From a bacterium (GTDB taxonomy: Bacteria > CLD3 > SB21), in the NCBI GenBank assembly GCA_013360215.1, contig JABWCP010000001.1:62001-126000 (forward strand): a DNA stretch of 64,000 bases. Reading direction: 5' to 3'. This document shows positions 14,544 to 18,620 of the stretch, one piece after another (position 1 is the first letter of the stretch; every line of letters begins with the position of its first letter). A program made the position numbers and the translations under genes. The notes below the pieces were generated by a model. The model saw only the letters and a list, made by a program, of their open reading frames with translations. It had not been told where the DNA came from and did no database searches.

Positions 14544-15297
14544 AGTTTTTCTTTCTTAAAACAAAATGAACGCGCTCCGATGCCTCACTTCCGTCCGTAA
14601 AACCAAGATTGGCTAATTGCGCAACGCAGGTAAATGGTGATGCACGGATTATCGCATGGATTTCATCCAAAGAATAAATTCGTTGTTGATGGGTTTCATG
14701 AAACAAGGTTCCGTTTATTTCTGCTTCGATTTCGTTAAATTGTGTTCGGGAAACGCGATCATAGTAACTGCGGCGTTTGTAATGATGCGTTCGATCCAGT
14801 TCATACCTCTGATCGAAGTGATCAAGTGAGTTTTTTTCAGTACAGACATCAAAAATAAAAACACCACGGTCCGTGATACACTCAGAAACATGATTAAAGA
14901 AATTCAGGATATCTTCAGCTTTCATCAGATAATTAACACTGTCATATAGGCAAAGCGCGGCATCGCATTCGACAGTAGGCTTGAAAGAAAGCATATCGCC
15001 AGTAAAAAATTGCATCTTATCCGATTGAGCAACGGGTTTTTTACGTGCGGTCATGATCATGGTTTCAGACCGATCGCTGCATATCATCGTATAAGGAAAC
15101 GCGGCCATCGCTGCGGCAAAATTACCGGTTCCGCAGGCAAATTCACAGACGGTTGATATACCAGACCCGTAACGCTCGAATATTTGATGAATAAATGACG
15201 ACCATGTCCGGTAATCCACATGCTCCATCATGCCGTCATAAAAATCTGCAAGCATAGAATACGGAGGTACATTCTTTTTTTCAAGAAAAGGCTGCAT
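14530..15297 (-). CDS. class I SAM-dependent methyltransferase
   Basis: 255 residues. The Rossmann-fold SAM motif I is VCEFACGTGNFAAAM near residues 50-64. ALCLYDSVNYLM is the post-III type segment, preceded by the acidic ICSDRSETM strand end. The opening YSMLADFYDGMMEHVDYRTW is typical of small-molecule or protein methyltransferases in this broad family. The substrate is unknown. It overlaps both neighbours (HAD gene and pdp), so it is co-translated in the operon. Confidence 0.85.
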   Translation of the reverse strand: MQPFLEKKNVPPYSMLADFYDGMMEHVDYRTWSSFIHQIFERYGSGISTVCEFACGTGNFAAAMAAFPYTMICSDRSETMIMTARKKPVAQSDKMQFFTGDMLSFKPTVECDAALCLYDSVNYLMKAEDILNFFNHVSECITDRGVFIFDVCTEKNSLDHFDQRYELDRTHHYKRRSYYDRVSRTQFNEIEAEINGTLFHETHQQRIYSLDEIHAIIRASPFTCVAQLANLGFTDGSEASERVHFVLRKKNYVAI

Positions 15298-15943
15298 GCG
15301 CCATCACTTTCAGTGAAAATAAGTCCGGAATTACAACATCCGCTTCATTCAAATATTTTTGATCTAGGGTCGTCGTCAGTGCGATACACGCCATCTTCGC
15401 TTTTTTGGCTGCAGTTACTCCCAAAGGTGCGTTTTCTATCACAATGCACCGTTCGGGTGATACGGAAAGCCTCGTCGCCGCTGTCGTGTAGGGCTCCGGA
15501 TCAGGTTTGGTTTTCATAACGTCATCAGCCGTTATGATGACTTCAAATCGTTTTGTAAAATCCGGCCCCACTGTTTTATAAAAACGGTCCCGATGCGCTC
15601 CGGTAACCAATCCGGTTTTCAGACCTTGTTTGCGAAACCATTCGATCAAGTCCTCAGCCCCATCGTAAAGCTTAGGTTTTGCCGTATTCAGGTATAAATT
15701 ATTCTTCTTCTTTCCAATCTCCTGACCATATTTAATATCCACGCCGTGGTTCATACATAATTGTTCGGCTATTACAAAAAGGCTTTGGCCTTCGAGTAAA
15801 CAAAATTCGTCCCAGTTTATGGAAACGCCGTATTCAGAAAAAACACTATTCCAAGAGCGATGGTGATCGCCAATACTATCCATGAGTACGCCGTCAAAAT
15901 CAAAGAGTACGGCTGAAAATTCCTGTAAACGTAAGTTTGACAT
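15281..15943 (-). CDS. HAD-superfamily hydrolase, beta-phosphoglucomutase-like
   Basis: 220 residues. Motif I is LFDFDGVLMDS with the nucleophile Asp and general acid Asp. Motif II is LVTGAH, motif III the KTKPDPEPY lysine, and motif IV is VIENAPLGVTAAKKA, all in order with a helical cap between motif I and II. This architecture covers beta-phosphoglucomutases and many sugar-phosphate phosphatases, and the ligand cannot be predicted. It abuts the glycosyltransferase gene with no gap, so a shared sugar-related task is possible. Confidence 0.85.
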   Translation of the reverse strand: MSNLRLQEFSAVLFDFDGVLMDSIGDHHRSWNSVFSEYGVSINWDEFCLLEGQSLFVIAEQLCMNHGVDIKYGQEIGKKKNNLYLNTAKPKLYDGAEDLIEWFRKQGLKTGLVTGAHRDRFYKTVGPDFTKRFEVIITADDVMKTKPDPEPYTTAATRLSVSPERCIVIENAPLGVTAAKKAKMACIALTTTLDQKYLNEADVVIPDLFSLKVMAHAAFS

Positions 15944-16651
15944 CTATCGTTTTTTCATTCTGCGATGATATCGCATTTCTAATTCTTCCGGTGAAGCACC
16001 CAGCAAACGAAAACGAATAATCACTTCCGCCGCGATACATATGCGCTTGACGATACCGGAAGAAAAATATCGGCGCGACGAAACGATAACCGGATCTTTT
16101 ATGATAATCATTCGCCCTGCCTTTTTCATTGCATCACAAAATATCACATCTTCCAACAAAGACACTTGTTTAAATCCGCCAAGCTGATGAAATACGCTTG
16201 ATCGGACAAAGATCGCATTGGTACCAACGAGATTACGCAACCAAAGTGTGCGGATCGTATTGATGAGGATACGGTACAATCGCATGAGCATATTTTCGGG
16301 ATTATATTTTTTTTGAAATCCGCCGCCGATGCATTGGGGATCGCTCAGAAATTGTTCGACGGATTTAAACGCATCCGGAGGAAGTTGGCAATCTACATGC
16401 AAAAAGAGCAGTACCTCACCTTTAGCGGCTTGGGCTCCCCGATTAAGTTGGTTCGCTCGCCCTTTATCACCCGATACGACGGTGCACGGAAAAGATAAAT
16501 TTTTCAAATCACTTACACGTTCGAGCGTTCCATCTGTACTGCCACCGTCGGAAACGATAACTTCGAATACGCCGGTCTGATGTTTCAGTTGTTCAATACA
16601 ATGGGTTATCCACTGGCCTTCATTGAGGACAGGTATGATGACAGAGATCAT
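15944..16651 (-). CDS. family 2 glycosyltransferase (TIGR04283-type)
   Basis: 235 residues. GT-A fold: ISVIIPVLNEGQWI at the N-terminus, VSDGGSTDGT for nucleotide binding, and FLHVDCQLPPDA as the metal-binding DxD-like site. GGGFQKK and LLEDVIFCDAMKKAGR match the subgroup I know as rSAM/selenodomain-associated transferase 2 (TIGR04283). The donor and acceptor are unknown. Its ATG overlaps the stop of the RelA/SpoT-like gene (ATGA). Confidence 0.85.
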   Translation of the reverse strand: MISVIIPVLNEGQWITHCIEQLKHQTGVFEVIVSDGGSTDGTLERVSDLKNLSFPCTVVSGDKGRANQLNRGAQAAKGEVLLFLHVDCQLPPDAFKSVEQFLSDPQCIGGGFQKKYNPENMLMRLYRILINTIRTLWLRNLVGTNAIFVRSSVFHQLGGFKQVSLLEDVIFCDAMKKAGRMIIIKDPVIVSSRRYFSSGIVKRICIAAEVIIRFRLLGASPEELEMRYHRRMKKR

Positions 16652-17772
16652 CCCGGAGAATTTCCGTTTTGTTGGAGACCAAGACGTTGATTGACAGCAT
16701 CCATTTGTCGCTGTTTGTATTTACTATGGCTGCCCTCGCCGATCTCATTATTCTGGTACGTCATCTGGTCCATGATCTGTATTTCGACCGGCACAAAAAT
16801 AATACGGCCAAATTCGGAAAAATCCGGTGTGTATAAAAAATCATCCACCCGTATCGGTATATCCATAACGATATTGATGGAACGATAGCTTGTGCTTGAA
16901 AATTTATTTTCTTTGGATACTTCATCCGGATCAAAACCGTGCGTATCTTTTCGTCTGAGAAATTTTGCGTACGATCTCAGATTGGGAAACATCTCAACGA
17001 GCTCTGCAAAGGCAATCAGATTATTATGCGAACTCCCCGGAATAACATAATTAAACGGACAAATCGTGCGGCCTAAAAAATACAATACCGGCAGTATGTC
17101 TTCGAGCGTCTGAGTAATGATACGAAAGCGGATACGGTCATAGATAGCCGCCGCATGATTTTCTTTCTTGGCCATCAGTTTGGTAACCATGCTCATCTTG
17201 TCTTTATGGCTTCCGTAAAAATCAACGATATGAAATTCGTTATTTTTCATCGTCGTAACGGCATGTTCCACTTTCCGTTCGACGGCAAAATAAAGATCCG
17301 AAGCCCGCATCTGGCACCGGTGGAAAAGTTCGCGCGCATCCAGGTGGTTGATCGTATGCATGATCTTGAGGACCATACACGCATAAAATTGATGTTTATT
17401 TTTTCGTGCGGACTGTGAAGCGAGATACAGAAGTTGTTCGATGGTGGCCGATTCCGGTCGGATTTCTTTGGGTATACGATGCGGGTATTTACTGTCGAGA
17501 TATTCGACCGCTTCGCGATGAATTTTTTCAATACGTTTGTGGTCCTGCACATTGGTAAGATCGTAGCCGTTGACTTGTAAAAAAAGCTGAACCTGATCCG
17601 GTGTATGAAAATCTAGACGGAACCAATCAATCACCGAATCTCCGTTGAGTACCAGCCGAATGGCTTCGAGATCACTCAAACGCATATCGCTGAGATAGAG
17701 TATCTCCTGCGGAGAAAAAATATTTTTCACCGGCGGAACATACAACGGCGCTTTTTTCTTGGGATCAATCAT
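16648..17772 (-). CDS. divergent RelA/SpoT-fold nucleotidyltransferase-like protein
   Basis: 374 residues. I place the start at the ATG at 17772, which overlaps the PHP gene stop as ATGA; a longer frame to 17967 would run through that gene. Residues 187-353 follow the (p)ppGpp synthetase domain in order. GSHKDKMSMVTKLM (K190, S194, K198) sits where Rel proteins have GRPKxxxSIxxKM. IYDRIRFRII supplies the catalytic Asp (D212). SYRSIN (Y296) is at the YQS(L/I)H G-loop, and VEIQI supplies the catalytic Glu (E330). SHSKYK sits at AAHWxYK. About 45 extra residues lie before the G-loop, and the N-terminal 150 residues are unrecognised. I infer a nucleotide-binding, possibly alarmone or pyrophosphate-transferring, enzyme; activity is unproven. 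Confidence 0.7.
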   Translation of the reverse strand: MIDPKKKAPLYVPPVKNIFSPQEILYLSDMRLSDLEAIRLVLNGDSVIDWFRLDFHTPDQVQLFLQVNGYDLTNVQDHKRIEKIHREAVEYLDSKYPHRIPKEIRPESATIEQLLYLASQSARKNKHQFYACMVLKIMHTINHLDARELFHRCQMRASDLYFAVERKVEHAVTTMKNNEFHIVDFYGSHKDKMSMVTKLMAKKENHAAAIYDRIRFRIITQTLEDILPVLYFLGRTICPFNYVIPGSSHNNLIAFAELVEMFPNLRSYAKFLRRKDTHGFDPDEVSKENKFSSTSYRSINIVMDIPIRVDDFLYTPDFSEFGRIIFVPVEIQIMDQMTYQNNEIGEGSHSKYKQRQMDAVNQRLGLQQNGNSPG

Positions 17773-18620
17773 GCGTTTACTTTGCGCAAAGCTTGTGCGC
17801 GATCCTTGAGTCGCTGGACGACGGAATACGGGACACGGTACTGACCTATGAGCGGCACTTGCCCTCGCCCGTGGCAATCGGAACCGCCGCTTTCTTCGAG
17901 TCCGTATTGTACAGTAAGGCGTCGGTAATATGCGGTCGAATCGGCCGTATGTTTGGGATGAATGCACTCGATTCCGTGGATACCGGCTTTGATCATATCA
18001 TAGACATGCGTTTCTTTCATATTAAGCGTAGGATGCGCCAAAACGGCTACACCCCCGGCCTTTTCGATGAGCTCGACGGCAAAACGCGGTGAAATTTTAT
18101 ATTTATCCTCATAGGCTGTACCGTCAGGGCCGAGAAACCGCGCAAAAACATCGTTGATATTGTACGCCAATTTTTTGGATAACATCACATCGGCAATGTG
18201 CGGTCTGCCGATCACACCGCGACCGGCTTTCATTTCGACTTCTTCGATCGTAATCTCCATGCCTTGTTTTTGAAGACGGTCAATAATACGTATGGCCCGG
18301 TGGCGCCGCTCATCTCGGTAAAGCTGCAGTTGCGCATCCAATGCCGCATCGGTGTGATCAAAACAATATCCCAAAACGTGAATATCGCGTCCATCCCAAG
18401 TCGTGCTGAGTTCTATGCCGGTCAGGACTTCCACATTATGTTTATTCCCCGCTTCTGTGGCTTCATCCACGGCCTTCACCGTGTCATGATCGGTGATCGC
18501 TATACAGTTCAGGCCGATTTTGGCGGCGTACTTTACAATGGCTTCCGGCGATAATATGCCATCCGAATAATAGGAATGCATATGCAGATCGGCCCAAAGT
18601 TCGGACGTTTTTTCGATCAT
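17769..18620 (-). CDS. PHP-domain phosphoesterase (RNase AM/TrpH-like)
   Basis: 283 residues. The PHP metal motifs appear in order: DLHMHSYYSDG, AITDHDT, the glutamate in GIELSTTWDGRDIHVLGY, and the late His motifs AHPTL and GSDCHG. The nearest characterised relatives (E. coli YciV/RNase AM, TrpH) are 5'-3' exoribonucleases that also release phosphate from 3',5'-bisphosphonucleotides. Its stop overlaps the start of the RelA/SpoT-like gene, so the two are translated together. A make-and-break pair acting on 3'-phosphorylated nucleotides is a tempting inference. Confidence 0.88.
   Translation of the reverse strand: MIEKTSELWADLHMHSYYSDGILSPEAIVKYAAKIGLNCIAITDHDTVKAVDEATEAGNKHNVEVLTGIELSTTWDGRDIHVLGYCFDHTDAALDAQLQLYRDERRHRAIRIIDRLQKQGMEITIEEVEMKAGRGVIGRPHIADVMLSKKLAYNINDVFARFLGPDGTAYEDKYKISPRFAVELIEKAGGVAVLAHPTLNMKETHVYDMIKAGIHGIECIHPKHTADSTAYYRRLTVQYGLEESGGSDCHGRGQVPLIGQYRVPYSVVQRLKDRAQALRKVNA

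Follow-up and report, generated by a model that had tools for sequence, protein, structure and literature searches.

In a stretch of 64,000 nucleotides of bacterial DNA (hereafter the window), one open reading frame had been described in an earlier note, made from the letters alone, as encoding a divergent RelA/SpoT-fold protein translationally coupled to a PHP phosphoesterase. We asked whether this resemblance is genuine and, in a genome that encodes a canonical Rel elsewhere, what reaction such a protein might carry out. Profile comparison, a predicted structure and residue conservation uphold the reading of a divergent RelA/SpoT fold: the protein belongs to a RelA/SpoT-type family, TIGR04552, whose catalytic core is intact and whose substrate site is altered. 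The features of the locus are listed in Table 1.

Table 1. Coordinates in the window of the TIGR04552 gene, the two domains of its product and the adjoining genes
Feature	Position	Strand	Basis
TIGR04552/TIGR04562 member, 374 aa, divergent RelA/SpoT-fold putative (pyro)phosphotransferase (ATG at 17772, end at 16648)	16648..17772	-	NCBIfam, Pfam, predicted structure and fold search
RelA/SpoT-type synthetase domain, residues 154-362	16687..17313	-	VIA-align to RelQ 5ded_E; conservation
All-helical N-terminal domain, residues 1-153	17314..17772	-	Model predicted alone, pLDDT 81.2
PHP-domain phosphoesterase, 283 aa	17769..18620	-	Pfam PHP E 4.2e-13; 4-nt overlap with TIGR04552 start
TIGR04283-family glycosyltransferase, 4-nt overlap with TIGR04552 stop	15944..16651	-	NCBIfam 200.2 bits (cut-off 182); synteny

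Family assignment and predicted fold

The earlier note had guessed that relatives might be catalogued under TIGR04552 or TIGR04562, and this guess was correct. Over its full length the window protein scored 316.6 bits against TIGR04552 (cut-off 125; E 2.4e-94) and 308.2 bits against TIGR04562 (cut-off 140; E 7.7e-92) in NCBIfam, where both entries are named by number only, without a function. In the literature we found TIGR04552 in one paper, as a row in a table, and TIGR04562 in none, and libraries of defence-system and phage families gave no match for the window protein.

In Pfam the window protein matched RelA_SpoT at 25.4 bits (E 1.8e-5), short of the gathering score of 27, so that annotation at the Pfam cut-off would miss it. 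The same model matched 52 of 60 relatives at an E-value of 0.1 or better (alignment A2, whose members are mostly less than 41% identical to the window protein), and in a deep-branching member the match ran over profile positions 3-111. Profile-profile alignment (hhalign) of the family with the canonical Rel and SAS sets from these genomes yielded E-values of 2.3e-6 and 2.4e-7, with the motifs in register. Reciprocally, the genome's own Rel matched TIGR04562 (E 4.8e-4), and the family profiles weakly recovered frames that are long Rels in four of the six unrelated genomes that we read. Direct sequence comparison with the PDB returned no RSH enzyme among its matches, and the best PDB match of the family profile, YwaC, reached an E-value of only 0.024.

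An AlphaFold2 model built from the 60-member alignment (mean pLDDT 86.8, pTM 0.87) placed the protein on the synthetase fold of the RelA/SpoT superfamily, as judged by both Foldseek and VIA-align. Every Foldseek match to an E-value of 0.001 was a small alarmone synthetase, a Rel or a RelA-type protein, the best being RelP (E 6.6e-6). VIA-align matched the model to RelQ (5ded_E) with Z 11.3 over 145 residues at 3.0 A and to Rel with Z 10.9, and lower to CapRel (Z 6.5) and Tas1 (Z 6.1), the structural match being carried by residues 154-362. The low TM-scores that Foldseek gave (at most 0.3 over the query) are to be expected, given the insertions and the additional domain. It is clear from Pfam, the relatives, the profile-profile alignments and the structure that the resemblance exceeds chance, and none of the outcomes that the earlier note had named as counting against it (no profile match, a fold lacking the NTase sheet, D212 and E330 unconserved) occurred.

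Catalytic core and substrate site

The synthetase motifs lie where they had been placed, with the same residue numbering: GSHKDKMSMVTKLM holds K190, S194 and K198, and is followed by IYDRIRFRII (D212), SYRSIN (Y296), VEIQI (E330) and SHSKYK (H349, Y352 and K353). Their order and the closing H-x-x-Y-K motif are shared with the long Rel, RelA and SpoT proteins (PF04607), and the distance from the Glu to the lysine of the YK motif is 23 residues in the window protein and long Rel alike. The claimed insertion ahead of the G-loop is present, but at about 40 residues rather than 45 as counted against long Rel, because the spacing from D212 to the G-loop Tyr is 84 residues in the window protein and 44 in long Rel. 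A second insertion of about 18 residues lies between the G-loop Tyr and the Glu (spacing 34, versus 16 in long Rel). In contrast to the long enzymes, and as the earlier note had stated, the window protein has no HD hydrolase, TGS or ACT domain that a Pfam scan could find.

Across the 60 members, K190, S194, K198 and E330 are present in every sequence, D212 and R217 in 59, and H349, Y352 and K353 do not vary. With RelP and RelQ the family thus shares the synthetase fold (Z 10-11), the catalytic Asp and Glu, the K...S...K phosphate loop and the aromatic residue of the G-loop, which at position 296 is Tyr in 47 members and Phe in 13; a Tyr-to-Phe change in the G-loop has been used to impair toxSAS enzymes (PMC11782079). 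Residues that contact the substrates have changed, however. The Arg two positions before K190 is replaced (position 188; Ser in 54 of 60, Gly in five), which breaks the ATP-site pattern R-x-K-x-x-x-S-x-x-x-K at its Arg. In the YxSxH motif the Ser is mostly Val and the His (H142) has become N300 in 55 members, three retaining His, and the Arg of E-x-Q-I-R (R158) gives way to a variable residue followed by an invariant D335. In the Rel and SAS set used for comparison (A4), none of these four replaced residues varies. The loss of both Arg residues and the Asn in place of His also separate the family from RelP and RelQ, to which it adds an N-terminal helical domain of 150 residues and the G-loop insertions of about 40 and 18 residues (counted against long Rel). 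D335, R355 and Q356 are invariant and specific to the family, and R215, three residues past the catalytic Asp, is found in 59 of 60 members, whereas long Rels have Ala there.

The change at position 300 is gradual, because some members retain His (YRSLH, YKALH), and since the substitution is not absolute, an ordinary purine nucleotide may still fit the acceptor site. The G-loop YKALH, together with a shorter variable loop, occurs in L140 (G144), from one Myxococcota genus. In another Myxococcota member (L066:5875-7020), Pro replaces the catalytic D212, and this copy is possibly degenerate.

The toxSAS enzymes offer a further comparison. In FaRel2, R64 and R95 clamp the adenine of ATP, while K66, S70 and K74 bind its phosphates (PMC11782079); the equivalents in the window protein are S188 and R217, and K190, S194 and K198, respectively. 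FaRel2 keeps the R64 clamp that TIGR04552 has lost, and it is plausible, judging from strand position, that the clamp Arg has shifted from the first strand to R215 on the second. The family resembles FaRel2 and CapRel in its synthetase fold (CapRel Z 6.5), its helical N-terminal extension and its changed acceptor site. Residues 1-153 form a helical domain, one long helix of which carries the invariant C132, L135, K136, M138, H139 and H143; modelled alone, this domain had no significant match in the PDB (best Foldseek E 0.71, best VIA Z 3.8). The N-terminal helical extension of FaRel2 helps to place tRNA (PMC11782079), and by analogy we take those helices as a lead for the role of the domain.

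Distribution and the PHP neighbour

The family was present in 155 of the 193 Myxococcota genomes sampled (a set in which G036 was counted by its identity with Citreicoccus), usually in a single copy, and Bdellovibrionota also hold members. In the small phylum of the source genome, seven of nine genomes were positive, all within that genome's own taxonomic family, and 17 of a wide sample of 290 genomes passed the cut-off. A canonical long Rel is encoded as a separate gene in the source genome and in all nine other genomes checked for RelA_SpoT. In two genomes of one Myxococcota genus (G180 and G233) TIGR04552 was matched three and four times, which points to paralogues. The match in L140 came in two pieces and was considered as a split gene, which we rejected, as the gene is intact; matches in L141-L143, from the same genus, are likewise in two pieces. 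In evolved populations of Bdellovibrio sp. NC01, a one-base deletion in the TIGR04552 gene DOE51_RS08710 reached high frequency (PMC9888234).

A search of plasmids yielded no TIGR04552 match, a search of phages no genuine one, and a scan of viral contigs no relative. The sole phage record matched, MW495066 (L124, L139), was rejected as a phage-borne copy, being a bacterial chromosome contig. Deposited as Microcystis phage MaAM05 (273,876 bp), it encodes ribosomal proteins, tRNA ligases and sec genes, and it carries a deep-branching TIGR04552 gene. Unlike toxSAS genes, then, TIGR04552 is chromosomal and usually single-copy, and we found neither a conserved adjacent or fused antitoxin nor a mobile context.

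The window lineage differs from other TIGR04552/TIGR04562 members in its adjoining PHP gene, whose stop overlaps the TIGR04552 start by four nucleotides (ATGA), as had been noticed; an overlap of the same length joins the TIGR04552 stop to the downstream glycosyltransferase gene (16648-16651). The earlier note had related the PHP protein to RNase AM/YciV, which removes phosphate from 3',5'-bisphosphonucleotides. The PHP domain itself is present, but scores of 179.4 bits (NF041577, cut-off 400) and 173.6 bits (cut-off 375) leave the protein well below the curated cut-offs for 3',5'-nucleoside bisphosphate phosphatase and for RNase Rnm (RNase AM), and outside both equivalogs; its best NCBIfam match spans residues 10-254.

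The PHP gene lies directly upstream of TIGR04552 in all seven genomes of the source family that carry the latter. Two genomes of a sister family have no TIGR04552 and no clear PHP orthologue, a co-absence that amounts to one phylogenetic contrast. Both genes belong to a conserved co-directional run of 11 genes, encoding a lipid kinase, a Crp-type regulator, a histidine kinase, a response regulator, the PHP protein and TIGR04552, followed by the glycosyltransferase, a HAD protein, a methyltransferase-like protein, a pyrimidine-nucleoside phosphorylase and a sigma factor. The HAD protein (15281-15943, minus strand) comes closest to a model for BT2121-type inorganic diphosphatase, at 141 bits (cut-off 245). 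The four-nucleotide overlap of PHP and TIGR04552 is found in the window, L006 and L010 and is missing in L002, L004 and L007. Nearly all the loci examined in Myxococcota and Bdellovibrionota lack the pairing, and among loci outside the source family only L016 has a nearby short PHP-like match. No neighbour of TIGR04552 is conserved across phyla, those encoding Ffh and protein kinases being lineage-specific. A joined frame of 673 residues in one genome (L003/L012) was considered as a PHP-TIGR04552 fusion and rejected, because the two frames are joined across a stretch of N that fills a scaffold gap.

The proposal of a synthetase/phosphatase pair is thus weakly supported: it has the seven-of-seven pairing and the co-absence in the sister family in its favour, and the 11-gene run, the variable overlap, the unpaired loci of other phyla and the low equivalog scores of the PHP protein against it. 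Because the two genes are one pair in a long run, their overlap varies and other loci are unpaired, we regard the PHP partner as a lineage-specific association, which is compatible with a functional pair but insufficient to argue for one.

The proposed reaction and its alternatives

The core catalytic residues have been kept while the substrate-binding residues have changed, and therefore the product is probably other than (p)ppGpp. Moreover, because the window protein scores below the Pfam cut-off and departs from R-x-K and YxSxH, TIGR04552 should not be filed as a (p)ppGpp synthetase. We infer that it is most likely active and transfers pyrophosphate from ATP to a non-standard acceptor. The explanation in full, that of a catalytically competent offshoot of the RSH synthetases that moves pyrophosphate from ATP to a 3' hydroxyl other than that of GDP or GTP, is advanced tentatively, at a confidence somewhat short of even. 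The loop of K190, S194 and K198 would bind ATP-Mg2+, R217, probably helped by R215, would contact the adenine, and D212 and E330 would hold the metal. The beta-gamma pyrophosphate would then pass to the 3' hydroxyl of an acceptor that the rebuilt G-loop (N289, F291-S292, Y296 and N300) and the P245-N250 segment keep in place, with the helical N-terminal domain probably covering or selecting that acceptor. GDP and GTP, which the separate Rel uses, are unlikely to fill this role; we favour an RNA 3' end or some other nucleotide.

Alternatively, the family may be a divergent small alarmone synthetase, regulated apart from Rel, which would use free purine nucleotides to give the cell a second source of (p)ppGpp or (p)ppApp. 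Its fold and catalytic pair are those of RelP and RelQ, the G-loop Tyr persists in 47 of 60 members with YxxLH retained in some, and many bacteria pair a Rel with a small synthetase (PMC3153485). However, the Arg of R-x-K, the Ser and His of YxSxH and the Arg of QIRT, invariant in the compared Rel and SAS enzymes, have been lost, and large insertions surround the G-loop, so that we consider this reading somewhat unlikely. A different transfer on the same fold, such as that of a nucleotide or a single phosphate onto RNA or a small molecule, would suit the family-specific invariant residues D335, R355 and Q356 and the appearance of the wider nucleotidyltransferase fold, including DNA polymerase lambda, lower in the structural list (Z about 6); yet the closest structural and sequence matches are all pyrophosphokinases and the RSH K-S-K loop is invariant, which makes it improbable. 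Least probable is that the family acts as a non-catalytic sensor, to which a nucleotide, for instance (p)ppGpp or ATP, would bind without being turned over, for although substrate-binding residues have changed, D212 is lost in L066 and the deletion in evolved NC01 indicates that the gene can be dispensable (PMC9888234), the Asp, the Glu and the three phosphate-loop residues are kept in 59 to 60 of 60 sequences that are mostly less than 41% identical to the window protein.

The pyrophosphotransferase reading can be extended to a housekeeping enzyme acting on a non-guanosine acceptor (for example an RNA 3' end or a nucleotide so far unrecognised), whose product would be a second 3'-pyrophosphate signal, with the PHP protein as its eraser in the window lineage; we think this extended form unlikely. 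If it is true, Myxococcota and Bdellovibrionota hold such a signal beside (p)ppGpp. A family without an assigned function, kept by about four-fifths of the sampled Myxococcota genomes, is now placed on the RelA/SpoT fold, and its intact catalytic core and changed substrate site make it a putative enzyme that can be tested directly. These results suggest that alarmone-type chemistry in these bacteria has been incompletely counted.
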